The translations under genes were made by a program, and so were the position numbers. A stretch of 21,990 nt of DNA from Chrysophaeum taylorii (taxonomy: Eukaryota; Sar; Pelagophyceae; Pelagomonadales; Pelagomonadaceae): positions 1 to 21,990 of the forward strand of contig JAQMWT010000265.1 in the NCBI GenBank assembly GCA_029834535.1, read 5' to 3'. Shown here one piece after another: positions 1,944-20,745 of the stretch; within the stretch, counting starts at the first letter, position 1; each line of letters opens with the position of its first letter. Under the pieces are notes generated by a model. The model ran no database searches. It was not told the origin of the DNA and saw nothing but the letters and a program-made list of their open reading frames with translations.

Positions 1944-2045
1944 TATGTATCTAAGACATCGTGACCCCTGGCCCTTAAAAGAAACTCGGCATGTAGGCAT
2001 ATGTCTCGTAAGTGTAGGTCCCCGCGTTCTCGAGCAGAACACGTC

Positions 2046-2888
2046 ATGCAACCTTCTGGTCTTTTTTTCTCGCCTGATAACATCCTCTCTTTTAACCTTT
2101 CGCCAGCGTCGCCGGCAGAAGCTGTGTTGCATATCAGTAACCGAAACTCTTCAAGTGTTGTTTTCAAAGTTAAGACTACAACACCCGAACGCTATTTGGT
2201 CAAGCCCAACCACGGGCTGATTCTTCAAGGCGCTTATGCGGAAATCGCTGTCGTCATAGTGCAATCGAAAAAGAAGGAAATACTGGCAAGTGTTAATAAA
2301 GATCAGCCCATGAAGTGCAGTGACAAATTTTTGGTCCAGAGTGCCATAATTGATCAAGTACAGACCACTGACCTGACTACAAGCACACCGCGGGAGCTTG
2401 CAGATAGTATTTCACGACTATTTGGCTGCAAGGATAAGAATCATATGAATGCTAAAAAGTTGTTAGTTGATTACAATTTCAATGATTGCAACCAAACGGA
2501 ATGTTCGCCAAGCCAGCTACTGACAGGCGTTCACAAGCACGGTCTGATGTCGTCACAACGACATTCATCTTCTGAGCCGATACCTGGATCTCCGGAAGCC
2601 ATGTTTGCTGAGATAGTGGCTCTGCGAAAGAAGTACGATGATTTAGTTGCGTTTACAGTGAACCTGACAGCTGAACGTGATTCTTTATCAGCGGATTTGG
2701 CTAGTGTTCGCAGCCATGTTGCAACACGTTGCTCCGCAGCTGAAACATTTAGGACAGCAGAGCATATTTGTCATCAAAAAATAAAAGCAAGCCCTTCCAA
2801 TCGATCTGCAACTTTAGTATTTTGTCAGGTTGTTGCCCTACCACTGACTGCTTTCCTTCTTGGTCGAATTAGTGCACTCGTATTTTGA
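2046..2888 (+). CDS. VAP/Scs2-like MSP-domain protein, ER tail-anchored
   Basis: This is a 280-residue protein of the VAMP-associated protein family, which sits in the ER membrane and tethers FFAT-motif lipid-transfer and other proteins at contact sites. Residues about 7-103 form an MSP domain: FKVKTTTPERYLVKPNHG (about 40-57) is the classic VAP signature of the FFAT-binding face, and KCSDKFLVQS (about 90-99) is the second one. A coiled coil follows (about 184-227), then a hydrophobic C-terminal segment (about 256-280) ending almost at the stop, as expected of a tail anchor. I chose the ATG at 2046 because an upstream in-frame ATG at 2001 adds 15 basic residues before the domain and lies close to the Helitron end. 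No intron is apparent. Frame and length are intact, making this the only convincing host gene. The family is clear; its specific partners are not. Confidence 0.88.
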   Translation: MQPSGLFFSPDNILSFNLSPASPAEAVLHISNRNSSSVVFKVKTTTPERYLVKPNHGLILQGAYAEIAVVIVQSKKKEILASVNKDQPMKCSDKFLVQSAIIDQVQTTDLTTSTPRELADSISRLFGCKDKNHMNAKKLLVDYNFNDCNQTECSPSQLLTGVHKHGLMSSQRHSSSEPIPGSPEAMFAEIVALRKKYDDLVAFTVNLTAERDSLSADLASVRSHVATRCSAAETFRTAEHICHQKIKASPSNRSATLVFCQVVALPLTAFLLGRISALVF

Positions 2889-3690: not shown

Positions 3691-5531
3691 TTAATTTACA
3701 TGCACCCTCCGTTTACGGATACGAAGCGGGATCTGACTGTATGCGGGCGCGTGGGTCGTGGCGGGGTCGTAAGCAGCGCGTGTGAGAAGATTTCGGCAGA
3801 CAATGTTCACGATGGTTAGCGTGCCGCTGTCGTCGAGGCAGGTGATGGCGCGAGAAAACGACGTCCTCCTGGCCGTGGGCAAGGAAATGATCGCGAGCAT
3901 CGAAGCACCCGGAAAGTCCGCGCTGGGATGGGGTTCGCTCGGTTGGGCAGAACGCGACGGACAGGTCGATTGTTCGTGGACCAACACGCCCGCGGCCTGC
4001 GACGCTTTTGCACGACCTCGCATAAGACCGCGCGCAGTGGCGGTACACCATCAACAAGTCCGTCCTCGTCCCTCGCCTCTGCCCCAACTGCGTGATTTTC
4101 CTCTGTGATTCCGTACCGGCTCCTGCCGGTCCGGCCTGGCTCCCATGCTTGGGAGAGGTCTGAAGTTAGTTAGTTAGTTAGTTAGCATCGAAGAGGCAGC
4201 GACCGAGTGTCTGGCCTTCGCTCTTGTGTGCGGTTATGGCGCAGGCGAGATTGAGCGGGAATTGGTGTCAAACGGCACGGTGTGCGCCGTAGATGCCGCC
4301 CGGTTCGAGCTATGACATCGGCATCATTATCACCAGCTGAGGGATTTCGATTTCCTTCTCGTGTGGAAGCGAATATTTCTTTACGGCGCAATAACATCGA
4401 ATATGCGAGCGAAAAAGAAGATACCGAGGCGGCCGTGCTCGACCGGTGACGGGAGCAAACTACAGGCGCTTGGGAGACTCGACGGGGTTCGAGAAGGCTT
4501 TGTCGGGGGTCGCGATCGCACGTAAATTGAGCTCGTGGGATTGAACAGATCTTACCTGTTTGTTGTTGCACTCGAATTCGGTTTTCCCCATAACGGTCGT
4601 TTGATGTCTGAACCAAACTTCGCAATGTGGGCCCTTTACCCGTGATTACGCTGCCCGTGTGCCGCGCGTGGTCGTGATACGGGTGTCGGAACTTCGTCAC
4701 GCAAAGCATGTCGGCCGGCCATCGCTGAGGCTATGGACGTTCACTCGGGCAACGCGACCGCCCAGCACACGCCTTCAGCGAAGTTGCGTGGGTACTTCGA
4801 ACGCCGTCGGCGATGAACCCCTTGTGGCGCAGGTGTCGACGCTCCAGTTCAGCACCGAATTCCTCTGTGCGAAGCTGCATCGCGTCCATCGGACGCAGCT
4901 CGACGAGCTCCAGCTCCTCCAGCTTCTCGACTACTCCTCTCCCTCTTCGACATCCTGCAGCACGTCGCCCTCGGCGACCTCCCTCGCCGCTTCCTCGAGA
5001 GACACCATCTTGGGCGTTGTCGTTGTTTACGAGGGTTACCGTAAGCACGTGGCAATGCCGCTGCGGGCGAAATCCAACTTGCGGTCTCCGAAGCCACGCC
5101 AGGGTTGCGCTTCGAAGGACCGGGGCACTGTCGACGAGCGGGCGCGGGATGTCGCCCTGGAGCTGGTTGACCAGCCTGTAGGCAGTGACTTTGGTGCTCG
5201 ACGGCACCCAGATGAACTGTTGGCCGCGAGCTCGGCGCCGAGGTGTGGGGCGGCGGCAAGGAAGGCGCGGGCTGGCGTCTGAAAGAGGACCTCAACGTCG
5301 GCCGTCTTCACGTCGAGGTCGCTGCGCCGATTCAGCTCGTCAATGAGCGTGGTATTGGAATACCACCAGGCCCGCGCTGAGTCCGGGAGGCCGGCCGAGG
5401 ACGAGCTGGAGCACGTGGGGGTCGTCGCGGCAGCCACCCCTCGGGCCCTGCTCGACGGCCGCGCCGTCGTCAGCGGGAAACACGTGGGCGCGGAGTACGG
5501 GAAGCTCCTTCGTAAGTAGGAGCCACGCCAC
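3691..5531 (-). pseudogene. Broken Pif1-like helicase gene, interrupted by a retroinsert
   Basis: Read on the - strand, several frames carry pieces of a Pif1/RecD-like DNA helicase. FPLNLACAITAHKSEGQTLG (about 4200-4265) is the late helicase block of the form 'A.TAHKSQGQT'. DARDHFLAHGQEDVVFSR (about 3852-3905) matches the following 'HGQ.YVA.SR' block. After a one-base shift, LTIVNIVCRNLLT (about 3775-3815) resembles the usual 'N.VY.EVL' ending. Upstream, TLIDELNRRSDLDV (about 5310-5350) may be an earlier helicase segment. The text differs clearly from the Helitron helicase remnants here, so it comes from another family. Stops and frameshifts are frequent, and the retroinsert at 3906-4185 splits the two conserved blocks. 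The exact ends are uncertain; the block identity is fairly secure, but the upper half (above 4750) is weak. Confidence 0.6.
3906..4185 (+). mobile_element. TTAG-tailed, 5'-truncated non-LTR retroinsert (copy 1)
   Basis: The insert ends in five TTAG units (4166-4185). It is bounded by a direct 10-base repeat, AGCATCGAAG, at 3896-3905 and 4184-4193, a target-site duplication. Deleting 3896-4183 rejoins the - strand helicase frame exactly between its two conserved blocks, which independently supports both boundaries. The last about 60 bases before the tail (from 4105) match those of the second insert (from 11609) with about five differences. A + frame includes DRAQWRYTINKSV, loosely like the C-terminal end of a LINE ORF2. 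A short 5'-truncated LINE is the simplest reading; a SINE using the same 3' end is possible. Confidence 0.72.
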
Positions 5532-5714: not shown

Positions 5715-6713
5715 CAAGTGCAGGCCAGTAAGTTCACCTAGTCCCAATCTCTAACCCCAGTAAGTTCACCTGGTCCCAGTAAGTTTCATATAAGTTCACC
5801 TGGTCAGTAAGTTCACCTACCTCACACCAACTCCTTTGAGCTCGTCGCTCTCGCCTCCGCCAATCTAAGCTGCTTTGATCCGCACGCGCCGCCAACCTGT
5901 GAGTTTACTCTAAAAACCCTTTACTCTAAAAACCCCAGTATGTTCACCTGGTCCCAGTTTCACCTGGTCACTCAGTTCACCTAGTCCCAATCCCAAACCC
6001 CAGTAAGTTCACGTGGTCCCAGTAAGTTCACCTATGGTGCGCGTGTAGACGCCGGGAGGGGGCTTATCGGTATTGCGCAGCACGTGTGGGGTAGGGTGGA
6101 GTCGTCGACTCAGAAGAGGATATCCTCGGGGTTGCCGATCGACAGGGAGCCACGTAGAGCTGGACGTGGCAGAAGACGGGTTTGGGCAAAAGGACGCCAA
6201 CCTCGCGGGGCGTCTGGCCCTGGCTCTTGTTGATCGTTTGGCGTAGGCGGGCCTTAAGGGATACAGGTTGGAGGAGCCTCGGTGACAACGACACGATCGA
6301 TCATGTATCTGGTACCGTTGCAGTGGCCGTGCGACGGGTCGAGGTTGCGAAGACCTTAAGCTCGCGATCAAAGTCAGCATGCCGTTGGTTGTCAGGGAGT
6401 TGAAAACTCTACTGTAAAGAGCGAGGCGTCGTCTTCCGACCCAGCCTAGTCAGCCGAAAAGAACTCCGACGCCTCGTCTCCGGGAAAAAAAGGCCGCGGT
6501 CATGCGCGCGTTGTCAGCATCGACAACATCGTTTCGACGGGGCGTGAGAATGGCGCGCTGAAAGAGCCGCCGCGGGTCGTGGAAATAGTCTGCGAGGTCG
6601 CCGTAGACGGTTTGGAGGATCACTGTCTGGCTCTCGCGCCTACCTGATCCTTACCCTAAATCGAGGGACAAACAGACAGACAGACAAACAGACAAACATC
6701 TGTCGATTAGTAG
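5715..6713 (-). mobile_element. Helitron-like element, copy B (complete ends)
   Basis: On the - strand the element begins CTACTAATCGACAG (at 6713) after an A and ends CCTGCACTTG (at 5715) before a T. It is 999 bases long. The left end carries a TTTG/TCTG microsatellite and the ATTTAGGGTAAGGATCA block. The right end carries the GTGAACTTACTGGGG array. Between them lies the helicase remnant. It is non-autonomous and lies head to tail with copy C, separated by only three bases (6714-6716). Confidence 0.78.
6053..6640 (-). pseudogene. Helitron helicase remnant (copy B)
   Basis: The clearest part is the final helicase block in one frame at 6064-6294: TINKSQGQTPREVGVLLPKP, followed by VFCHVQLYVAPCRSATP. 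The 'CNGTR' block lies in another frame near 6300-6340. The frames are not continuous, and a conserved L in 'YVAL' has become P. The upstream Walker motifs and the Rep nuclease are absent. Confidence 0.75.
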
Positions 6714-7011
6714 TTACAAGTGCAGGCCAGTAAGTTCACCTAGTCCCAATCTCTAACCCCAGCATTTTCACCCTGTTAAGTTGCGTAAGCCCACTCGTGC
6801 TCACATCCACTCACCCCACTCTCCTTCGAGCCCGTCCCTCTCACCTCCGCCAATCTAAGCTGCTTTGATCCGTACACGCCGCTAGCCTTTGCGTTCACTC
6901 TAAAAACCCTAGTAAGTTCACTTGGTCCCAGTAAGTTCACCTGGTCACTCAGCTCACCTAGTCCCAATCTCCAACCCCAGTAAGTTCACGTGGTCCCAGT
7001 AAGTTCACCTA

Positions 7012-7607
7012 CAGTGCGCGTGTAGACGCCGGGAGGGGGCTTATCGGTATTGCGCAGCACGTGTGGGGTAGGGTGGAGTCGTCGACCCAGATGAGTATAT
7101 CCTCGGGGATGCCGATCGACAGAGAGCCACGTAGAGCTGGACGTGGCAGAAGACGGGCTTGGGAAAGAGGACGCCGACCTCGCGGGGCGTCTGGCCCTGG
7201 CTCTTGTTGATCGTTTGGCGTAGGCGGGCCTTAAGCGATACAGGTTGGAGGAGCCTCGGTGACAACGACACGATCGATCATGTATCTGGTACCGTTGCAG
7301 TGGCCGTGCGACGGGTCGAGGTTGCGAAGACATTAAGCTCGCGATCAAAGTCAGCATGCCGTTGGTTGTCAGGGAGTTGAAAACTCTACTGTAAAAAGCG
7401 AGGCGTCGTCTTCCGACCCAGCCTAGTCAGCCGAAAAGAACTCCGACGCCTCGTCTCCGGGAAAAAAAGGCCGCGGTCATGCGCGCGTTGTCAGCATCGA
7501 CAACATCGTTTCGACGGGGCGTGAGAATGGAGCGCTGAAAGAGCCGCCGCGGGTCGTGGAAATAGTCTGCGAGGTCGCCGTAGACGGCTTGGAGGATCAC
7601 TGTCTGG
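7012..7607 (-). pseudogene. Helitron helicase remnant (copy C)
   Basis: The frame at 7041-7271 keeps TINKSQGQTPREVGVLFPKP and the following HVQLYVALCRSA block, the best-preserved helicase ending in the window. Earlier blocks are out of frame with it. The remnant is about 590 bases, against several kilobases for a full RepHel protein. Confidence 0.75.
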
Positions 7608-7653
7608 CTCTCGCGCCTACCTGATCCTTACTCTCGCGCCTACCTGATCCTTA
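7608..7653. repeat. 23-base tandem duplication in Helitron C left end
   Basis: Two adjacent copies of a 23-base unit starting CTCTCGCGCCTACCTGATCC occur at 7608 and 7631. Copy B has the unit once at the matching place (about 6635-6660), so the duplication arose in C. Confidence 0.85.
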
Positions 7654-7971: not shown

Positions 7972-10539
7972 TCACAGACTCGTCCGTGAGGTCCCCATGC
8001 TACCGCCACACTGGCGGCAGCGTCCAGGGCGATATTGGACCTTATTTTCATACGAAAAATCCTGTTCGGGTGTCGCGTCGCTGACGGGACTATAATCAGC
8101 AGCGGGAGTTGGATCCGGTTCTTCGTGTTGGTCGTCATCGCTAGGTTTATCATCATGCTCGTTTTCGTGAGTCTCGCCCTCATTTTTTGATTCCTGTCTA
8201 ACTTCCGGCACTTGCTGTTCGCTTATAGCTGGTAGCGGGTCCTCTTGTCGTGTATTTGTTGGGATCTGTGCGAGTGCTTTGATCCGTGCGATCTCCTTGT
8301 TACGATTGACTGGCATGTCTGCGTCGACATGACAGTTGTAAGGGATTATTTTCCCATATCGCCCTTGATGTACAAGCAAGATAGAGCTGTGAACATCTCG
8401 AATAAATCGGTCCGCTCCGGGGAGGTTCGGGAGATAGTTGTTACTATGGAAGTAAGAGGCGGAGACGCTGGAGGGTTCCAGCTCGCGACTTTGAGGGTAG
8501 ACGAACGTGACAGGTTCGCCAAAGGGGAGAAGCTTCAAGAGCGGTGCCATGGGTGACATGATACGCCGGGGAACGGTGCATGTCATGTTTGTGCGCGAGG
8601 GCAGTCCATGAGAGCGCTCGTTGTCGGCTTGGATCTTATGCAGGAGAGCAAATGGGTGATAATACTCAGCGGCAATAGACTTTCCTTCGGTGCGTACACT
8701 GCGAAGGGTGAGGAGCCGAACTACGGTGCCTCGGGTGTTTTCCTTGCTAATGTTTTCAGCAAAGTTCCGCTGGTGGAGGTGGCGACCAAGGATTTGGAGT
8801 TGGAGACCAAGCTGCACCTTGAGGGGGTGGAAAGCTTCAGAGCGAAAAGTTGAGAAGGCATCAAACGATGTGATCTTCAAATTGACATCGAATTCGACTT
8901 TAATCACATTGACCACATAGAGGATGCCGGCCAGAACATCCTGTGCGTCTGATTTCCGCAGGAAATAGACCCATTTGTGTGCTGAGATAATACACACAAA
9001 GTGCATGATGTAGCGAAATCCGCCGTAGCACATGCTGATGCTCGGGTATGATACATCCATGTGGAGGTGTTGGCCAGGAGCATAGTCCAGTTCACCCTGG
9101 GACCAGGAATTGCTCTTGTGACGGAAGCTCACCTGCGATTGGCAGCGCTTGCATTCATTGCAGTCTTGCAGATACCGATCATCACCTGGGCGGAGATTCG
9201 TTACATTAGCGGCAATCGTTCGGCAAAGAATCTCGGGTTGTTGGTGGTGTACGCGGTGCCAGCGAGTGACCAAAAGCACTCTTTTGGCGTGCTGAATGGT
9301 GCCGGGCTGGTGCAAGGGAGCCAGAGCAGCAGTCGAGGCGCTGGGGGGGCTGGGTCGCTTGTCGACTCGGATTTTATCAACGGTTGCCTCGGCAAGCAGC
9401 GTCTCGAGGTTTGTTGATTTGCTTGGTTTGCGGATCGCATCATGGTGAGCATCTGCAACAGCATTGAAGAGGGAGGTGAGGTTCAGGTCTTCCTCTGATA
9501 AGAGACGGCTGGAGATGGCCGAGAAGTACTCTGCAACCTGGTTGATGTCTCCGGGGCTGGGGGTGCCTTGGCGTATCGTGGCCCATTCGACGTGAAGGTT
9601 CAAGTGGTGGTGCGATTCGTGGAATGCGAGGACAGCGCTGTACTCTGCCTGCAGCATGTGGCGCGGGACGGCGTTGGCCAGTGCCTTAAACGCGAAGTAC
9701 GGCGGGTGCTGTTGGAACAGTCGGAGCAGTTCCGGGTCCGAGTGGTGTCCAAACTTTGCGATTTCGTTGAGGGTCGCATAGCGGATGTGGTCTGGAGAGA
9801 TCGGCAGCAAGGCGTTGGAGTAGCCCGCGTTGGTTGGGTACGAGCCAGTGACCGAGTAGCACTTGGTGCTCGTCTGAAGCGTGCCTCCGATGTGGCCGAC
9901 ATAAGCCGCGTAAGTGGGACGTGCTTTGGACATAATGAGACCCTTGGGGTCATCGAGAGCAATTCGCCCTTGTGAGTCGATCGCGGCAAGGCCAAGATGC
10001 GAACGATTCATATAGTGGACCCAAGTGGACGGGCGCGAACAGCTGTGAGCGGCGGCCAAGGAGGCGGTGTAAGCGACGACCAGAAAGGCGGTGCCCTTGG
10101 GAACATCCAGGGAAAAGGAGTGCGTTGGGGAGAAGACTGCGGGTTGATGGGAACAGTCCAAAGTCTGAGGGGGCCTGGAATGTAGTGTGAGGGAGGCGCG
10201 CGATAAGTATCCACATGCGACGGCAGTAGCGGCGGTGTCGGTGATGGCTCCATCCAAATGGTAAGCACATTGAGACTCTGAGGCATGAAAACAGCGGACG
10301 GTGTTCCAAGCGGCGAGAGTGGGGTGTCGCGACAAATGGTTGTGCAGGAGTGTGAAAACCAGGAGGTGGGGTATGGACGCCATTGCGGCGTAGGAGGTGC
10401 CGTCTGCATCTAGACCGAGATCCGTGAAGGGCTTGGTGAGACGTGCGAGCATTTGGCAGATGCGGGCATTCTCGGAAATCGAGAGTTTCGAGGCGTTGGC
10501 GGGCTTGTAGGAGTAGGTGGCCTTGTGCTGGTAGTAGTC
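7972..10539 (-). pseudogene. Copia-like polyprotein: methyltransferase C-terminal part, zinc motif and DD35E integrase
   Basis: This open frame runs from just after a TAG at 10540-10542 to the stop at 7972. It is 826 residues counted from the first ATG at 10452, the numbering used here. The first 40 residues complete methyltransferase motifs IX-X. Residues about 200-275 hold a second IX-X-like segment. H399, H403, C431 and C434 (or C434/C437) form the GAG-pre-integrase zinc motif (WHRVHH ... CNECKRCQSQ). The integrase catalytic triad is D466 (HLHMD), D531 (ITSFD) and E566 (NFAEN), with 35 positions between the last two. After this comes a copia-like C-terminal region (LPFGEPVTFVY, about 642-652; GRYGKIIPYNCHVDAD, about 697-712). 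The tail from 735 is acidic and ends before any RT. Integrase inserts the cDNA copy into host DNA. The triad is intact, but the chain is cut off from Gag/PR by breaks. Confidence 0.8.
9613..10332 (-). other. Extra module between methyltransferase and integrase, with a second motif IX-X-like segment
   Basis: Residues about 41-280 of the integrase-bearing frame are not needed for integrase. Their end, IRYATLNEIAKFGHHS (about 223-238) followed by FKALANAVPRHMLQAEYSAV (about 255-274), lines up with C5-methyltransferase motif IX (R.LT..E.A...GF) and motif X (GNAVP, here ANAVP). No second PCQ or ENV is seen before it. Either a degenerate second methyltransferase C-terminal half is fused here, or the target-recognition region is unusually long and this is the true IX-X, making the segment at 10320-10500 a mimic. 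I favour a duplicated C-terminal half, with moderate doubt. Confidence 0.5.
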
Positions 10540-11322
10540 CTATGTGGAGCGGGGCACTGTACCACGAAGGGCGGGTTTGGCGATTCAGAGATCGTCAGGG
10601 ATGGTGTGACTGGGGTCCAGGAGAGGAACCATGCTCGGAGGCGAGGTTAACCAAGGAGAGGCGGTTTTCTCGAGGTTGTAGCCGGTGAGCGGGTGCCGGG
10701 CATACACAGCGAGATAGCGTGTCTTGCTGATGACGTCACCAAAAGCAGAGGCATTGTAGACGCCGGAGTGGCGGAAGTAGCCTAAGCGCTGATAACCTTT
10801 GGCGAGTTGAGCATACTCGTGGTGAGTTCGGGGGTTGGGAGGTACGTTCTCGACAATGGCATAGGTCGGGAGCGTGCAACGAACGAAGCGGATTTGTTCT
10901 TTGACGAAAAGGTCGGCGGTAACCGGAGTGGCATAGCCGTCGTATTCTTTCATTACACTCCGATGTTGGCAGGGCAAGGTAAAAACTGCCAGGTCGAATG
11001 TAGGGAGTCGTGTTTCGTCGGTTTGGAGTGCGGCATTGAGTTTTCTTAGGTCCGCATAGTGCTGGGCGTGCGGGAAGAGTTGTTGCGCACGGGTGCGCAG
11101 GATATCGTTGATTTCGCAGGTGACCACGACAGTAAGGCGTTTGTCGAATCGTTTGCGAAAAGTGTCGAAACCTTCCTGGTGAAGTCCACCTGCAATAATG
11201 GCGGTTTTGACCAGATGGATTGGTGTTTGCACAGAGATGTGTGCTGTGCCATTGAAGGCGTAGTGGACGACAGGATGTTGGGGGTTGAGCAGCTCGTTGA
11301 GATACAGAGAATGGTTCTGTTA
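10320..11322 (-). pseudogene. C5-cytosine DNA methyltransferase domain inside the retrotransposon
   Basis: This is an enzyme domain that transfers a methyl group from S-adenosylmethionine to carbon 5 of cytosine in DNA. Numbering from the GTG at 11232: TAIIAGGLHQEGFDTF (10-25) stands for SAM-binding motif I, VVTCEIND (36-43) is motif II, YADL (59-62) is motif III, and FTLPCQHRS (84-92) is motif IV with the catalytic cysteine C88 (10969-10971). YAIVENVP (124-131) is motif VI with the catalytic glutamate, and ASAFGDVISKTRYLAVYAR (161-179) is motif VIII. A short target-recognition stretch follows. After a TGA (10585-10587) and a TAG (10540-10542) in the same frame comes motif IX (LSISENARICQM), then motif X-like YAAMASIPHLL. 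Upstream the frame continues through the retroinsert at 11323-11685. Motif I is atypical because the usual FxGxGG is reduced. The domain identity is very likely; activity is excluded unless the stops are errors or are suppressed. Confidence 0.82.
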
Positions 11323-11685
11323 CCCTGATCGCCGACCGCATGGTTGCGATGGAGGACGGTGCCTCATGAATCCTGAGCCTTGCGAGGGCATCCGCCCTCC
11401 CGGCGTAGGTTGGCACCTATTCGCCTCTCGGGCGGGCCGGTTGGCAGCCGGAACGTTCGCAGTGGGGCGGGGTATGGCCGGGGGGCGCAGACGGAAGGTT
11501 ATCGACGAGTTGGTTGTCAGTCACATCGCGGTCTCCTCGTCGCATGGCGACAAGCTTGATGATCACTCTCCGCCGACCCACCTTTCGGCGCCCCTCGTCT
11601 ACAGGCCCGTGATTCCGGACTGGCTCCTGTCGGTCCGGGCTGGCTCCCATGCTCGGGAGAGGTCTGAAGTTAGTTAGTTAGTTAG
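11323..11685 (+). mobile_element. TTAG-tailed, 5'-truncated non-LTR retroinsert (copy 2)
   Basis: The insert ends in four TTAG units (11670-11685). Imperfect 15-base direct repeats, AGAATGGTTCTGTTA at 11308-11322 and AGAATGGCTCTGTAA at 11684-11698, differ at two positions and mark the target-site duplication. Removing 11308-11683 gives a continuous - strand frame from the protease side into the methyltransferase, which confirms that the insertion interrupted coding sequence. The 3' about 60 bases match retroinsert copy 1. The + strand ORF over it is not a recognised protein. Confidence 0.78.
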
Positions 11686-12462
11686 AATGGCTCTGTAACT
11701 TCGCAAAGTCAAGCGTGTGCGATTGTGAGAGTGTCTTTGCGACATGCTGTGTGATGTGTGCAATCTCATCTTGAGTGACATTCGTTTTCTTGTGTGAAAG
11801 CTGACCACAGTGGCGAGTATTTGCTTTGGGTGGGATGGCAGGGACAACAGGCCGTTAGGCTTGCGAGTGGCAAGTACGACGGCGGTCTTTCCTATAAGTG
11901 TTGCGTAATTGTGGGAGTCTGAGGTCGAGGACTTTAGAAGCTCATAAAGGTAGGGCTCGTGGGGCAGTGGCGGTTCTGTTGCTGTACATGCAGCTTTGAG
12001 CTGAGATGTTGCGGTAACTTGAAGACCTTGCCTGAATTGCGGGACGACCATAAATACGAGATATAAAGCGTAACCGGTTTTGTCTTTTGTATCCTTTGAA
12101 GAGAGACCTGCAGCCTGCAGATACAACGGTTTAACACCGATGAAGAAGCTGGTGAGAGTGCCTCGTCCCATATGAATGGTGTGTTCGGGAATTCGGCGTG
12201 TGGTCTCAGGAACAAAATTTTGAATTGTGCGCGTAAAGCAAAAATACGCGCCACCGTCGATCAAGGAGGTTTCGGTGCCGGGTCCATTGCACCCGTGCAG
12301 CGAGTTAGTCTTCTTTGAGGTCTTTCCTGGAGTGTAAGTTGCACAAAGAAAATCTGCGACTCTGGGTGAGATAGTTGATGAGGTCGGGAAATTCGTCATT
12401 TTGAGGTTTGGTGCCTGATGGAGTAAGGTGTGGTTGGCGGCACAGGCGTCGTCGGCAACCAT
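11686..12462 (-). pseudogene. Copia-like protease segment and start of the methyltransferase region
   Basis: The frame from 12462 contains TETSLIDGGAYFCFTRTIQN and then RIPEHTIHMGRGTLTSFFIG. This is the layout of a copia aspartic protease: a catalytic D-(S/T)-G-A followed by a 'G.G....' flap-like stretch. The catalytic aspartate would be residue 69 (12256-12258), and the usual Ser/Thr after it is Gly (DGGA). VVPQFRQGL further on corresponds to the protease C-terminal 'V...LLSV' region. This enzyme would cut the Gag-Pol polyprotein into working parts. The displayed frame is lost near 11800: between there and 11699 the better frame is one base over (it contains DEIAHITQHVAKTLS), and that frame leads into the methyltransferase across the retroinsert. 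Confidence 0.6.
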
Positions 12463-12906
12463 CAGCGAAAAAGCCGACTCTGGCGGAGAGCACGCATGTA
12501 GTCATTGTGACGTTTTGCGTAGTCTTCGGCGGAGTCTCTTCGGCGGAGTCTTCTTCATCATTGGTTTCGGGAATGGTGTCGTCGTAGAGGTCTAGCTGAC
12601 CGTTGTCGTCATAGAAACCGAGGTGTCCTTTGTCGTCTTGTTCATCGGTTTCGGCTTCGCCCTCATCAGGTGGATCGTCCTGGGGATCGGACGTTAACAT
12701 CTGGAGGAATTCGGCGGCGTCGTTTTCTGCTTCAGAGAGAAGTATCTCATCGGAGATTGTATTGTGGTGATGAGGTTGATTAGCTTGTTCATGTGTTCGG
12801 AGCTGGACGTATGTTGGCGACCGGCTTGGCTAAGATTCCGTATGGTTTGGAGCTTGCGACGGACTTCACGAAGGGGGACTTTGAAGCGTTGGTCAGGAGT
12901 AGATGG
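12440..12906 (-). pseudogene. Acidic linker between Gag and protease
   Basis: After the Gag stop at 12907 the same frame reads on with RFKVPLREVRRKLQTIRNLS to about 12760. After a shift, a strongly acidic frame (12700 to about 12440) contains DDPPDEGEAETDEQDDKGH and DLYDDTIPETNDEEDS. No zinc knuckle is visible. The stop and shifts suggest one former Gag-Pol reading with either a programmed or a degenerate junction. The function is unknown beyond spacer or assembly. Confidence 0.5.
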
Positions 12907-14679
12907 TTAGGGTGGATGAGGTTGTGTGGGGAGAGTGACCTTGCGAAGATGCGGGTGCTCGCGTTTGTCAGGGGTGACAGGAGGAGCGCGGGGACGGTGC
13001 TTGTTCTTCGGTGGGGTGACAGGGGTGGCCTTGGGCTTAGGACTGTCATTGATGTCGTAGTAAGACGGGGAGCGAGGATTAGGAGGCTTTTTGCCTGGAT
13101 GATTAGGAGACTTTTTGCCTGGAGGGGGCTTCTTGAGGTGCCGCGAGATCTGCTTCTTGCGGTAGGCGTGGAGTTGGTGAATGAGGTCATTGTCTTCCTC
13201 TTGATCAAGATTGGCCTCCGTGATAAAAACAGCGACGGGGTTGGCGTCTTCGACGGGGTCCGGTGGGGTGTCGTCTTCAGAGGGAGAGGTGTCATCGTCT
13301 TCGGTGAGGTGGAGACCGTGACGGCGGGAGCGAAAGCGGAGGTTGTCTTTGTCCTTTGTTGGCAGACGACCAAAGTCGGTGACGAAGCGCAAAGCCTTGA
13401 AGTTGAGAGTTGGGTGAGGCTTGAGGTGAGCCCAAAAGTTGCGCTCGAACGTTGAAATGACGGTGATGCGAGCGATGAGCTTAGGAAGGTGGTGGATGGC
13501 TTCCTTGTCTTCGTCGAGTAACAGCGAGTCGTTGGGATTGCGCAGACAGTTAGCAAGACGTGCAAAGCCCTTGATATGAGTTGGGGCGCGGTAGTCAAGC
13601 AAGCTTGGGGGGTACTTGAAACGAAGAATTTGGTGAAATTCTTCGAGGATCTTGTCGTCGGGAAGTTGGAGAGCAGCGTCGGTGGTAATCTGGCGCAGTT
13701 GCTGCTGGACATGGCGCATGTAGTCGATGTAGTGAGCAGGCTCATGTATTTCGGGGTTGAACGGCGTATCCAGAAAGGCATTATAGACATAATGCGCATG
13801 GTGGATGTGGTTCTGGCCCGTGTGCTTGTCGAGTGCTAGGCGAACTTGAAGCACAAATTCGAGTCCTATCGGGCAGGAGGATTCGAGTGCATCGATTTCG
13901 TCGTATGCTGGGTGCTTGACGGAGTCGCTACCGGCATGTAGGAAACGGCGAACTAGGGGGTGTGCGGTCTCGCGGAGATATACGATGAAGTCGGCTTCTT
14001 TTCCTTGGAGGTGGGGTTGGGTGATTGGATATAACTTGCCTTTTGTCATATCGGCTGGGTCCCTGTCTTTAGCTTTGAGTTCTTGGGGCTTTGGCTCGTA
14101 GACGTTGTCCAGGAAGTGCTTGCCGAACTTGCGGTAGACACTCTTGTAGTAGACGTAACGGCCTTGGAAATCTGGCGTGTTCCCGGCGGTAGAGTGGTGG
14201 TCGGGGTCCTTGTCGTATTCGTCGATACACTGGCTTAGGAGGGCGTCAGCGAGATCATTGGATCCGCGCAGGACGGATTCCCACGTGTAGAAGCACTGTA
14301 GGAGGTATTGAGTTGCACCTGTTTCAGGCATCAGGTGTTCGACGAACAATTGCATGACGCGAAATGAAAGCATCTGGGGTGTGACTTGAGCGTTGTCCAT
14401 TGACTTGAGGACGGCGCTAGGGGGGTCACTAAAGGTGTTGACCTTAGACTTGGGATCTTGTTGAGCCGGAGTGGGAGGCGGAGCCGCAGCAGCGACGGCA
14501 GGTGGTGGTGCTTGCGTTGCTTGCACTTGGGCGGTCAACGCGTTGAATTGAGCGTTGAATTGTGCCATCAAGCGGGCTTCTTGGTCTTGCATCTCTTTTT
14601 GATGCCTTGCTTCTAAGCGAGCTTCCATGCGAGCTTCTTGTTCTCGCATCTCCTTTTGGAGTTCATGATTGGTTAACAT
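12907..14679 (-). CDS. Gag-like structural protein of the copia-like element
   Basis: I place the start at the ATG at 14679 (MLTNHELQKEMREQ), giving about 590 residues. An earlier in-frame ATG at 14760 would add 27 residues of leader-like sequence. The N-terminus is a long charged coiled coil (QKEMREQEARMEARLEARHQ onward, about 50 residues), then a Pro/Ala-rich linker and a long, mostly helical region. The C-terminal 75 residues are very basic and rich in Pro/Lys (repeated PGKK(S/P)PN). These could bind RNA in place of the usual CCHC zinc knuckle, which is absent. The frame is intact. Its role as Gag is inferred from position, the coiled coil and the basic tail; I do not recognise a named Gag family. 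The long reverse-overlapping ORF at 12789-13799 is a shadow. Confidence 0.68.
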   Translation of the reverse strand: MLTNHELQKEMREQEARMEARLEARHQKEMQDQEARLMAQFNAQFNALTAQVQATQAPPPAVAAAAPPPTPAQQDPKSKVNTFSDPPSAVLKSMDNAQVTPQMLSFRVMQLFVEHLMPETGATQYLLQCFYTWESVLRGSNDLADALLSQCIDEYDKDPDHHSTAGNTPDFQGRYVYYKSVYRKFGKHFLDNVYEPKPQELKAKDRDPADMTKGKLYPITQPHLQGKEADFIVYLRETAHPLVRRFLHAGSDSVKHPAYDEIDALESSCPIGLEFVLQVRLALDKHTGQNHIHHAHYVYNAFLDTPFNPEIHEPAHYIDYMRHVQQQLRQITTDAALQLPDDKILEEFHQILRFKYPPSLLDYRAPTHIKGFARLANCLRNPNDSLLLDEDKEAIHHLPKLIARITVISTFERNFWAHLKPHPTLNFKALRFVTDFGRLPTKDKDNLRFRSRRHGLHLTEDDDTSPSEDDTPPDPVEDANPVAVFITEANLDQEEDNDLIHQLHAYRKKQISRHLKKPPPGKKSPNHPGKKPPNPRSPSYYDINDSPKPKATPVTPPKNKHRPRAPPVTPDKREHPHLRKVTLPTQPHPP

Positions 14680-15016
14680 TTTTCTTGGGTTCAGGAACGT
14701 CAGTGAGCGGGGCTTGTCTGGGAATCCTGAGGCTCTGCTGATACCGGGACTGGTGCCCAATACCTAGAGAACAGTAATCACAACTGTGTTACCCTTCAGC
14801 AGAGCGTGAGAACAGTGGTAGTCTGTCCTCGAATCTGTCTCTTAATCGAGGACAGCCGGTGTGAATAATACTGCGATTCCTTAAATCGAAAGGTGGCAAG
14901 GTTAGGAGAACTAACCCTAGAAGAAGGGGTACTAACCCTAATTCGGATTTTCTGTCTCTAGCAACACCTGTGAGAGACAACTCGTCAAGCTCGACCTCGC
15001 CGCCAACGAGATCAGG
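14680..15016. other. Leader or LTR-like region before gag
   Basis: No gene is seen. It contains a strong inverted repeat (14823-14855) and a G/A-rich stretch with repeated CTAACCCTA (14910-14940). A CCCTAGAAGAAGGGGTA block here (from 14914) resembles CCCTAGAAGAGGGGTA at 17306 beside the gypsy element. It lies where the 5' LTR and leader of the minus-strand element should be, but no second LTR copy is available to prove it. Confidence 0.4.
14823..14855. repeat. Perfect inverted repeat, possible hairpin
   Basis: CTGTCCTCGA (14823-14832) and TCGAGGACAG (14846-14855) are exact reverse complements around a 13-base loop. It lies about 150 bases upstream of the Gag start on the - strand, so in the transcript it could be a leader hairpin (packaging, dimerisation or a transcription stop). 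This is inference only. Confidence 0.7.
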
Positions 15017-16092: not shown

Positions 16093-16187
16093 CCCGCCCG
16101 TCAGGCACATCCCTCATACCCCACAAACCCACCCACATCCTTCATGCTCCCCACACACACCCCCCTCTTACAGTCGACATTTAAAGA
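16093..16187 (-). repeat. Minisatellite unit inside Helitron D
   Basis: On the - strand this segment matches the units at 15-298 (AAATGTCGACTG, the G-rich run, GAGCATGAAGGATGTGGGTG, GGGGTATGAGG, CCTGACGGGCGG). It sits between two copies of CAGACATTGATCCTC, suggesting gain by a template switch at the direct repeat. Confidence 0.75.
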
Positions 16188-16193
16188 CAGACA

Positions 16194-16775
16194 TTGATCC
16201 TCCAAGCCGTTTACGGCGACCTCGCAGACTGTTTCCACGACCCGCGGCGGCTCTTTCAGCGGGCCATTCCCACGCCCCGTCGAAACGATGTTGTCGATGC
16301 TGACAACGCGCGCATTACCGCGGCCTTTTTTTCCCGGAGACGAGGCGTCGGAGTTCTTTTCGGCCGACTAGGTTGGGTCGGAAGACGGCGCCTCGCTCTC
16401 AAGAGTCGAGTTTTGAACTCCCCGACAACCAACGGCATGCTGACTTTGATCGCGAGCTTAAAGTCTTCGCAACCTCGACCCGTCGCACGGCCACTGCAAC
16501 GGTACCAGATACTTGATCGATCGTGTCGTTGTCACCGAGGCTCCTCCAACCTGTATCCCTTAAGGCCCGCCGACGCCAAACGATCACCAAGAGCCAGGGC
16601 CAGACGCCCCGCGAGGTCGGCGTCCTCTTGGCGAAGCCCGTCTTCTGCCACGTCCAGCTCTACGTGGCTCTCTGTCGATCGGCAACCCCGAGGATATCCT
16701 CTTCTGGGTCGACGACTCCACCCTACCCCACACGTGCTGCGCAATACCGATAAGCCCCCTCCCGGCGTCTACACG
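16194..16775 (+). pseudogene. Helitron helicase remnant (copy D)
   Basis: The first frame includes MILQAVYGDLADCFHDPRRL and AIPTPRRNDVVDADNARI. The final block, TITKSQGQTPREVGVLLAKP then HVQLYVALCRSATP, is in a second frame at 16523-16753. The same text as in copy A but with different substitutions (SQGQT is in frame here) shows that the copies decayed separately. Confidence 0.75.
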
Positions 16776-17079
16776 CGCACTGTAGGTGAGCTTACTGGGA
16801 CCAGGTGAACTTACTGGGGTTGGAGATTGGGACTAGGTGAACTTAGTGACAAGGTGAACTTACTGGGGCCAGGTGAACTTACTGGGGCTTTTAGAATAAA
16901 CTCAAAGCTTAGCGGCGTGTGCGGATCAAAGCAGCTTAGATTGGCGGGGTGAGAACGACGAGCTCAAAGGAGAGTGGGGTGAGTGGGTGTGGGTTTACGC
17001 CGAACTATAGAGATTGGGTTTACGCCGAATTTACTGGGGTTAGAGATTGGGACTAGGTGAACTTACTGGCCTGCACTTG

Positions 17080-17389: not shown

Positions 17390-19540
17390 CTAGCGCGAGG
17401 AGCGCGGCTTCGCCTTACGAGCATCTCGTGAACGAATCTTCTGGTAAACGCGGGTGATGATCGGTTCAGGAACTCGACCACTGCGTAAAGTAAACTTGGG
17501 GACCAACACGTCAATCTCGTGCGGAGCGTAATCCGTGACACAAGGAGTTGTGTTGGAGGAAATTCGGGACTTGTCGGTGAAACTTCGACCTTCGACGTCC
17601 TTGAATTCGGGCTTGAGCTTGCGGTGCGAAAGATGAGAGGTCGGCTTGAAATAAGCGACATCATCGTTCGGACCTAAATCGGAATAGAAATGTAGAGCAA
17701 CACGATCATTTTGGTAATCGTAAGGCTCGTAAACTTCAGCAACATAAACCTTCTTGCGCCAATCGGAGCGCTTCCGGTCGGGAATTCGGAAAACAACAAA
17801 CTTACCATGCTGATAATCATCACGGAAGGTTTCTTCGGGTTTGCGGATGGCTTGATCAACAATCGGAGGTACCATCACAGGCGTGATCTGACTTACATGA
17901 ACACGCCGCTCTTCGGGCGGCGAGTCGAGAGACTCAATCCTATAGGTGACCGGGGAGAGGCGTTCCTTGATAATAAACGGTCCTCGCCATTCCGGTCGAA
18001 GTTTGTTCTGAAGGAAAGGGATGTAGAGCAAAACGTGCGATCCTTCCTTGTATTCAACATCAACATGATCAGCATTGTAAGCCAATCGCTGTTTCTTCAA
18101 AGCCTTATCACGAGCCTCGCGGACGATCTTTGTATAATATTTCAATCGTTCGCGAGTCTCGGCGACTGCATCAGAGCGAGTCTTCGGCAACAATCGTGTA
18201 TCAAAATCCATGAGCGTGTAGTCAGTCGGCAGCATCGGCTGACGGTTCAGGCGCAGCATAAAGGGAGAAATCTGCGTGCCTGGAATAAACTTGCGGTTGT
18301 AGCAAAACGCAATATAATGAGCAAAGTCAGGCCAATCCGTGATGTTCCGGCCTTGAAGGCAAGCACGGAGGAAGGCCTTGATAAATCGGTTGACACGCTC
18401 AGCCGGGTTCGACTGGGCATGATAGGGAATCGTAGTTTGGTATCGTGTGTTAAAGAGATGGCAAAACTCACCCATCAACTTGTTCACGAACTCTTTACCG
18501 TTGTCGGTACGAATCATCTGGGGCAAGTAGCCCTTGAGGAGAATGTTAATGACAAAAGACTCGAGAATGGACTCGGCGGCCTTATCATTCAAAACATCCA
18601 GAATCAAGAAATGCGAGAACGGATCAAAAAATACTAGAAGATACGTCTCGGGACCAGCGCTGGGCAAGGGTCCAAATAAATCCATGCAAAGAACAGCGCC
18701 ATCACCATCGTAGACGGGCTGCTGCAAGAGTCCAGCTCGTTTCGGCTCAGGCGTACGAGCTTTCTGACAAACTAAGCATTCCGCAATGAAGACTCCAACT
18801 TCGTTCGACATGTGAGGCCACCAAAATCGTTCTTGGATAGCCTGGACGGTACTGTGACGTCCCATATGACCACCGTTAACCGGAGTGTCATGATAGAGTC
18901 GAATAATGCGCTTGCGCAACGTAGCAGGTGCAACAATCATCGGGTGCGAATCAGCAGAAATGCGATAAAGAACATCTTTAACGACTTCGAATCGTTCGTT
19001 CGCTCGAGAACGTCGCGGCGTCTGACCTTGGGCCATTCGGTAGCGAATATCCTCGCAAGTAGCATCAGATTCTTGCTCACGTGCGATCTCAGCGAGCGTC
19101 ATATTATCGGGTATCTTATCGATATAATCTTTGTAAGCGGCTGCGTCCTTGAAGATCTGTGGCTCATCACGCGCACGGTTCTTCCGACGTTGTCTCGTAG
19201 CGTGAGACGTAGCCAATTTCATCGGATCCTTTTCAGGGTCTTCGTCTTCGTCTTCCGGCAGTTCGGTCGTAACAAACGACATTATGAAGTGGCAGCCAGA
19301 GACGGGAACTCCTCGGTCATCAACAGGTCGGGGAAGCTCTTGGAACACTAAATACGCGTGGTTCAAAGGTTCTCCAAACTCGTCAGTCTCGATGACATGA
19401 TCTATCGGGTTGCGGGAGAGACAGTCAGGGATACTCATTCCCGGTGACTTTCCCGGCTTGTAACCAAGTTCAGGGTCAAACTTGGCGAGGCGCATCGCCG
19501 AACGAGCAAGCTGCCCAGACGAGTGCGTCGCCTTACGTAA
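17390..19540 (-). pseudogene. Gypsy integrase with RNase H end and extra C-terminal module
   Basis: This frame is 701 residues from the ATG at 19495 and is open upstream to about 19550. The start MRLAKFDPELGYKPGKSPGM...DCLSR is the end of RNase H. The integrase zinc motif is H202, H210, C240, C243. The catalytic triad is D272 (CMDLFG), D331 (RTDNGKEF) and E366 (NPAERVNR), exactly 35 apart for the last pair. A GPY/F-type module follows at about 484-525 (LRPEWRGPFIIKERLSPVTY). A further 150 residues (from about 560: GKFVVFRIPD, VYVAEVYEP, VALHFYS, RKLKPEF) have an alternating pattern suggestive of a small beta-barrel (Tudor/chromo-like) targeting module. The chain is intact within this ORF but is separated from RT/RNase H by a shift. 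It integrates retrotransposon cDNA. Confidence 0.88.
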
Positions 19541-20078
19541 AACAAATTCGGTGATCGGTCTCCAAAACAGTCCGGTGCCCTTCGATGTAGGCTCGAAAGT
19601 GCTCTAGAGAAAGTATAACTGCCAGCAGCTCTAGCCGACGAGGCTCATAATTCCGCATCTCCTTCGGCACAGCTCGGCTCCAGTATTCAATTACTCGTTC
19701 TTCTCGAGTCACTCTTCCGGCATCGTCCTTGACTTCGACAATCCGGAAGAGATATGCTCCAAGTCCATCCTTGGAAGCATCGGATCGGATCTGAAAAGGC
19801 AGATCATAATCGGCGTGGTAGACTCCACGGGAATCAACCAAAGCTTCAATAATCGCATCCCAAACTTTCTGACACTCGGGCGTCCACTCGAACTTTACAC
19901 CTTCGAGGCATAATCGTCTCAACGGTTCCACAATCTTCGAGTAGCCCTTCACATATCGCCGGCAGTAATTACTCATGCCGATGAAAGAACGTATCTGGGT
20001 CTTCGGGGAAGTATTCGGTAAAGTACCTGGAATCGGCATCTTCTGCAGTGCTTCCAGCGTCTTCGGATTCGGCTTCAA
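19541..20078 (-). pseudogene. Gypsy RT thumb/connection and RNase H
   Basis: The frame 20078 to 19533 begins KPNPKTLEALQKMPIPGTLP and IRSFIGMSNYCRRYVKGYSK, the 'FLG..NYYR.F' connection. It continues with PLRRLCLEGVKFEWTPECQK and then RNase H: IRSDASKDGLGAYL (first Asp), EYWSRAVPKEMRNYEPRRLE (Glu) and VLETDHR (Asp). It degrades the RNA strand of the RNA:DNA hybrid during cDNA synthesis. The frame is lost right after TDHR, where the neighbouring frame resumes with KATHSSGQLARS. Confidence 0.85.
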
Positions 20079-20745
20079 GCCTTCTGGGGTTGTGTCCCAG
20101 AAATTCTATATCATCCTTGAGAAGGGGAACTTCGCGGTTCGACCGCTGTACCCTCTCTGTGCCAAATGACACATCACTTCGATCAAAACTTGTAAATGTC
20201 GATGAAGATCGTCGGATCCCATCATAATATCGTCAACAAACGCAACCAAGTCTGATACATCCATTTCGAAAGGTCGCTCGCCATTTGCTTGCAGAAAAGA
20301 GCTCCGGCTGTCTTCACACCTAGAGGTAATCGCAAGAAACTGTGAGCGCCAAGTGGGCTAACCATCGTGACAGCGTCCTGCGCTGCCGGATCCAGACGAA
20401 GGTTGTGGTATCCCCATCAATATCAATGCATGTCCGCCATCGTCTCATCGCGAGAAAGGCTAAAGCATCATCTTGTCGAATGTTTGGCCAACTGTCATTG
20501 ACCAATTGATCGTTGAGCTGACGTAAGTCAACTGCAGCACGGAACGCGTTTGACGTTCCAATCTCAGCTCCTTTCTTCGGAAGCATCAACACAGGAAAGC
20601 CCCAAGGTGAGTTGGCCGGACGAATGACTCCATCCCGGCACCACTCGCTGATCTGCTTGCGGAGACAATCGAGCTTCGCAGGCGTCAATCGGTAGGGCGT
20701 CATCTTGATCGGTCGCGGATTCGCGTCTTTGAATCGTAGAGACAC
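20079..20745 (-). pseudogene. Gypsy reverse transcriptase (fingers/palm), frameshifted
   Basis: PYRLTPAKLDCLRKQISEWC and VIRPANSPWGFPVLMLPKKG start the RT. AVDLRQLNDQ and WRTCIDID are the following blocks, with the first catalytic Asp. After a shift near 20418, the next frame has YHNLRLDP and FLRLPLGVKTAGALFCKW. After another shift, VAFVDDIMM (about 20221-20250) supplies the catalytic Asp pair, as FVDD. All main RT motifs can therefore be found, but in three frames. It copies the element's RNA into DNA. Confidence 0.85.

Follow-up and report, generated by a model that had tools for sequence, protein, structure and literature searches.

Cytosine C5-methyltransferases carried by retrotransposons have been described in LINE (long interspersed nuclear element), DIRS and Gypsy elements by de Mendoza et al. 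2018 (PMC5890265), excerpts of which present Symbiodinium Copia as having no DNMT domain. Another paper (PMC12344493), also in excerpt, places DNMT3 members in "LTR Copia and DIRS families" (LTR, long terminal repeat), citing PMC5890265, and its wording does not tell a slip from a finding. Among the open-access titles and abstract openings listed, none mentions a copia element with such a methyltransferase. The stretch of DNA analysed here, below called the window, is the whole contig JAQMWT010000265.1 (C265; 21,990 nucleotides) of Chrysophaeum taylorii (Pelagophyceae; assembly GCA_029834535.1), and the genome searched amounts to 70.8 Mb. The minus strand of the window contains a decayed copy of a Ty1/copia LTR retrotransposon, which encodes a C5-methyltransferase domain between a protease-like segment and the integrase. 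At least four copia families share the domain and purifying selection acts on it; the best explanation, to which we give about an even chance of being right, is that a copia clade acquired the enzyme once, retained it and most likely uses it to methylate its own complementary DNA (cDNA).

Methyltransferase Domain and Unbroken Copies of the Element

The open reading frame (ORF) at 10588-11319 on the minus strand matches PF00145 with an E-value of 2.1e-8 and a score of 34.4 bits against the curated cut-off of 22. An initial annotation of the window, made from the sequence alone, had proposed a cytosine methyltransferase built into a copia-like element and had named the lack of such a Pfam match as a reason to drop the proposal; both the match and the presence of the domain and RVT_2 in one frame in two unbroken genomic copies bear it out. 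The PF00145 match, an ungapped alignment to the copy in contig C96 (locus L021) and, for motifs IX-X, a profile match outline a domain of probably about 540 residues on the minus strand (approximately 9595..11217). Motif I lies at ~11202-11170, as placed by the ungapped alignment and residue numbering; the translation and the same alignment put the catalytic Cys of PCQ at 10969-10971, the Glu of ENV at 10849-10851 and the motif VIII Arg (SKTRYLAV) at 10717-10719, three features that the initial annotation had recognised. Its interval was 10320..11322, with no coordinates for motif IX, and the domain runs further.

The same interval contains an IX-like stretch, LSISENARIC (~10456-10485), which is unlikely to be the functional motif IX, given that a profile of the downstream C-terminal part aligns with the motifs IX and X of phage enzymes; the functional pair is probably located outside the interval, near 9786-9622. 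With this profile, three phage methyltransferases ranked at the top (E-values 1.9e-4, 0.03 and 0.15), before 120 copia decoys; only the first of these matches is strong, and the remaining ten of the 13 methyltransferases compared did not rise above the rest. The middle IX-like stretch may otherwise be motif IX of a first enzyme in a tandem duplication. About 300 residues separate motif VIII from motif IX, so the description of the motif set as compact does not hold.

In C5-methyltransferases the Cys of motif IV, the Glu of motif VI and the Arg of motif VIII are catalytic, and the Glu of motif II belongs to the S-adenosylmethionine site. An alignment of nine sequences spanning the four families has 14 invariant columns, including a motif I Gly and the motif II Glu, motif IV Cys, motif VI Glu and motif VIII Arg, and 24 copies of family 1, the family of the window copy, retain the Cys in 23 cases (with one gap), the motif VI Glu in 22, the Arg in 23 and the motif II Glu in 23. 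Family 1 retains PCQ and ENV; families 2-4 have EMT or EMR in place of ENV, and PCT, or ECT in family 2, in place of PCQ. For motifs I, IV and VIII, in contrast, the textbook forms (C[SA]G, SPC/PPC, QxRxR) are retained in the sequences of families 3 and 4 and partly lost in family 1.

The architecture of the element is clear from unbroken copies. The copy in C96 has an open frame of 1952 residues with DNA_methylase at 349-475, a weak rve match at 1016-1110 (E 0.0061) and RVT_2 at 1686-1933 (E 1.6e-38); a putative RNase H was recognised in it by eye, and the protease-like segment and the methyltransferase form a single frame. The copy in C314 has a frame of 1868 residues with DNA_methylase and RVT_2, and no rve match. 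In C96, the one copy examined in this respect, LTRs of 208 and 196 bp (89.4% identity over 208 columns) enclose the element, and CTCAC is present on both outer sides, corresponding to a 5-bp target duplication; the 3' end of the C96 element (query position 1182-1192) is common to 39 of the 46 other matches listed. The element is a Ty1/copia LTR retrotransposon, as indicated by RVT_2 located after the integrase, the LTRs and the target duplication. The gag-like region of the C96 copy also contains a 218-bp tandem duplication (L021 1957-2391).

Distribution among Copia Families

The counts of genome matches are lower bounds as numbers of hits; they include separate fragments of a single copy and matches located in near-duplicate contigs. 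With the window domain as a query, family 1 gave 152 matches from 628 candidates, 150 scored, and many of these copies contain stops; the reverse transcriptase (RT) of family 1 gave at least 147 genome matches. Among 78 long RT matches picked by eye and checked for a listed upstream domain, 55 have one at a distance of 2.5-8 kb (median 4117); these are 55 of the 73 RT matches of 63-100% identity and none of the five of 42-43%. The remaining 18 of the 73 close matches have no domain among the matches listed, and one of them, C441, carries it on inspection, so that at least this absence comes from the extent of the listing. The copy in C560, from the 42-43% group, contains a diverged domain that represents family 2 (24% identity over the part from the protease-like segment to the methyltransferase, E 1.4e-20 against a single 8-kb locus); no domain was found upstream of the RT in the 8 kb of C445 covered (L062, RT identity 43%) with the family-1 polyprotein, the only query applied there.

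Genome-wide, family 2 matches family 1 at a best E-value of 5.3e-15 (down to 9e-6) and family 3 at a best E-value of 6.1e-8 (down to ~4e-6). Family 3 comprises at least 138 matches from 1030 candidates; family 4, located upstream of a frequent RVT_2 type and 52% identical to family 3, comprises at least 143 from 1093. The domains of families 2-4 are 17-21% identical to that of the window. Of the best 150 RVT_2 loci, 65 are preceded on their strand by a listed domain 3-7 kb away, and no locus is followed by one at that distance; for the other 85, with none among the matches listed, the search speaks neither for nor against a domain. The genome search returned many copies with the domain, two of them shown to be unbroken, rather than the domain-free copies which the initial annotation had put forward as counter-evidence. 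A chance insertion was considered as well and is ruled out by the many copies and the four copia families carrying the domain.

Selection on the Domain

Among single-step variants of the family-1 domain, the ratio of nonsynonymous to synonymous changes (N/S) is 177/152 for singletons versus 62/156 for shared variants (Fisher p 5e-9). Shared variants elsewhere in family 1 show N/S of 31/108 in the protease region, 22/123 in the integrase, 6/47 in RVT_2 and 38/60 in the linker, a stretch that takes in the latter half of the methyltransferase. The summed pairwise dN/dS values, calculated for stop-free copies, are 0.25 for the domain (19 of 24 copies), 0.18 for the protease region (11 of 18), 0.31 for the linker (15 of 17), 0.12 for the integrase (12 of 15) and 0.09 for RVT_2 (7 of 8). 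Four sequences of family 3 gave dN/dS of 0.05-0.086 in the four pairs, out of six, that had a computable dS, two of these four having dS above 2.4, near saturation. Purifying selection acts on the methyltransferase domain.

Relatives and Origin of the Enzyme

The closest relative found by tblastn is a phage methyltransferase (E 1e-6, 25% identity). A profile of three families matches M.HhaI at E 3e-7; the family-1 profile alone gets no further than 0.86, for a different bacterial enzyme. The recognition region aligns at its start with the DNA methyltransferase of phage vir335. Searches of viral contigs with the family-1 profile gave nothing useful, hhalign comparisons of this profile with the host DNMT2-like and DNMT5-like proteins and E. 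coli Dcm gave no informative result, and the structure-library search had no entry named DNMT3 among 19 matches up to E 10. These comparisons support an enzyme that is bacterial- or phage-like and not clearly eukaryotic, its nearest relatives among the sequences searched being of these types.

In the RT tree, families 1-3 (family 4 was left out) form one group (100/99) with respect to 35 public copia rows, which were the first 35 long matches. In the domain tree, constructed without DNMT1 or DNMT3, all four families form one group (99/100) with respect to twelve other sequences. Since the trees join the families, they suggest one old acquisition, and a single capture by their common ancestor is the simplest reading.

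Decayed Copy in the Window

The window copy occupies 8052-14961 on the minus strand, as aligned to the C96 copy. Its 5' LTR is located at 14754..14961 (-) (~208 bp, the inner end approximate), where the blastn alignment to L021 starts at 14961 and the extent follows from the match between the 5' and 3' LTRs of C96. The gag-like region, 12789..14760 (-), has broken frames (ORFs 12907-14760 and 12789-13799), is colinear with the gag-like ORF of L021 and has no Pfam match below E 0.1. The start of pol, an ORF at 11674..12462 (-), contains a protease-like segment recognised by eye (LIDGGAYFCFT), for which no Pfam match was found in the window or in the unbroken copies scanned. A 364-bp SINE-like (short interspersed nuclear element) repeat with a TTAG-rich end was inserted later at 11321..11684; 12 bases are repeated at its edges, and the two pieces of the blastn alignment share 12 bases of L021. 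The order of protease-like segment, methyltransferase and integrase on one strand was described correctly in the initial annotation, but in the window this insert splits off the protease-like segment. Part of the window at 4105-4181 is related to the 11609-11685 part of the repeat, and the same repeat also seems, by eye from the translation, to interrupt the methyltransferase region of a family-2 copy (L061).

The methyltransferase and the downstream integrase ORF share a frame, as the initial annotation had stated, with two in-frame stops between them, TGA at 10585-10587 and TAG at 10540-10542 (10540..10587, minus strand), which break the window copy inside the methyltransferase domain. The integrase, at approximately 8380..9252 (-), was delineated by eye from its zinc-binding H/C and D,D,E residues and has a weak rve match (E 0.051 in the window ORF and 0.0061 in L021, both below the curated cut-off). 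The alignment to L021 stops at 8052..8053 (-), before the reverse transcriptase, leaving the window copy without RT and the 3' LTR. With the insert, the in-frame stops, gag in pieces and the RT end missing, the window copy is a dead element.

Host Methylation Genes and Methylation Footprint

The genome contains a DNMT5-like gene (L039 4168-9900, C621), one long frame where a PF00145 match is followed by an SNF2-type helicase, the latter recognised by eye, and a DNMT2-like gene (L038 4322-5401, C634), which matches the DNMT2 chain 1g55 at E 3.9e-39. The latter gene is adjoined, on the opposite strand, by a light-harvesting ORF with best matches to VCPI-6, FCP8 and PCPI-8; this neighbour points to a host that is probably a photosynthetic eukaryote with a plastid of the red line.

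The CpG observed/expected ratio is 1.02 in the element versus 1.31 and 1.43 at two host gene loci. Third-position C/T differences before G show at most a modest excess, 1.0-1.6 times the frequency of those before other bases; they amount to 0.158 versus 0.097-0.132 in 14 loci, and to 0.107 versus 0.071-0.104 in the eight closest loci.

Proposed Role of the Enzyme

The preferred explanation supposes that the methyltransferase was acquired once, between protease and integrase, and persisted while the elements diverged into at least four families. The protease would probably free the enzyme, alone or joined to the integrase, inside the virus-like particle, where it would most likely methylate specific cytosines of the new double-stranded cDNA, either ahead of integration or in its course; the marked copy would then escape treatment as foreign DNA, or would take on a chromatin state maintained by the host methylation machinery, such as the DNMT5-like protein. 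We prefer marking of cDNA in the particle since protease, integrase and reverse transcriptase are produced together with the enzyme, and a single element may in this way link its copying to the marking of DNA. The single origin, processing, activity, substrate and benefit are the parts of this explanation that we infer.

Several results weigh against it. The methylation footprint is weak, with no strong scar, and indicates no target site; G/A differences are no more frequent after C (0.146) than after A (0.156) or G (0.240). As the only test of its kind, this lends little to the proposal of the initial annotation that the enzyme served to mark cDNA of the element or the genome of the host. One copy each from families 2-4 gave no Pfam match to PF00145, protein database searches with the domain alone found no homologue at E 0.001, and catalysis in families 2-4 is unsure given the changed ENV and PCQ triplets. 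In family 1, selection on the domain (0.25) is weaker than on the integrase (0.12) or RVT_2 (0.09). The program warned of long branches in both trees and, for the RT tree, of unsettled bootstrap.

Another reading, unlikely on our assessment, makes the domain chiefly a DNA-binding and target-choosing module for the integrase, methylation being secondary or lost in families 2-4; the long target-recognition region would guide the integration complex to particular sequences or chromatin. It would account for the ~300 residues between motifs VIII and IX, for the altered ENV of families 2-4, for the position beside the integrase and for the location of the best conserved family-1 stretch (by eye) in the part leading to IX-X; however, the Cys, Glu, Arg and motif II Glu, needless for pure DNA binding, are invariant in the nine sequences and retained in 23, 22, 23 and 23 of the 24 family-1 copies. 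We think it somewhat less probable still that the enzyme methylates host DNA or that of rival elements, altering silencing or the chromatin of insertion sites: there are hundreds of matches in the genome, and the DNMT5-like host gene could maintain de novo marks, but no strong CpG loss was observed at the few loci measured (observed/expected 1.0-1.43). An RNA substrate, the RNA of the element or the primer tRNA, methylated in the manner of DNMT2, has a slimmer chance again. Reverse transcription in the copia class is tRNA-primed, and the host DNMT2-like gene matches chain 3qv2, which the profile of three families finds as well (E 1.2e-4); yet the best match of the profile is the DNA enzyme M.HhaI, and the recognition region aligns at its start with a phage DNA methyltransferase.

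The broken window copy and the many copies with stops could be taken as signs of a chance gene capture, now a functionless passenger, which is scarcely credible, as the sharing by four families and the purifying selection already contradict it. A bolder version of the cDNA-marking explanation, in our opinion doubtful, would have the copia clade depend on one captured bacterial- or phage-type enzyme with a greatly enlarged recognition region beside the integrase, so that marking and integration become one act; in families 2-4, with EMT/EMR in place of ENV, the chemistry or the substrate would have changed, with very strong selection in family 3.

Other Features of the Window

A separate Ty3/gypsy-like pol in pieces is located at 17390-20745 (-), its ORFs 17390-19495 and 19533-20078 containing integrase zinc-binding, rve and RNase H-like RT domains. 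A repeat of ~0.6-0.8 kb is present four times (1016-1624, 5959-6632, 6847-7609 and 16185-16947), two copies per orientation, with pieces 89-99% alike. The ORF at 2001-2888 (+), which contains a major sperm protein (VAP-like) domain (E 1.8e-15), is probably a host gene.

Comparison with Known Systems

The element adds the Ty1/copia superfamily to the retrotransposons known to carry cytosine methyltransferases, and its enzyme is apparently of another type. It also shows that several families of a single genome can maintain a methyltransferase domain durably and under selection, here with hundreds of matches. The coexistence of unbroken copies and a host DNMT5-like gene makes the question of cDNA self-marking directly testable in one organism.

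Ty1/copia polyproteins of plants, algae and other organisms (P0003-P0122) likewise have the integrase before RVT_2, but the best 120 of 373 are without PF00145 among precomputed domains, and their alignments cover 9-17% of the query. Phage and bacterial C5-methyltransferases (phrog_116, phrog_363, M.HhaI) have the same motifs I-VIII, with IX-X further on; unlike the element domain, they are free-standing, the identity between the two being ~18-25% and the VIII-IX gap of the element reaching ~300 residues. According to the excerpts of PMC5890265, SymbioLINE-Dnmt also combines an orphan-type methyltransferase with a retrotransposon, but this is a LINE, whose methyltransferase is encoded in another ORF, ahead of that of the RT, and which has no free cDNA before insertion. 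The closest parallels in the same excerpts are SymbioDIRS-Dnmt3 and KnitGypsy-Dnmt3, where a C5-methyltransferase is located inside Pol, several to many copies exist, purifying selection acts and self-methylation of cDNA was proposed too; they belong to the DIRS and Gypsy groups and carry an enzyme of the Dnmt3 type, whereas the element described here is a Ty1/copia retrotransposon whose enzyme appears nearest, among the sequences searched, to those of bacteria and phages.

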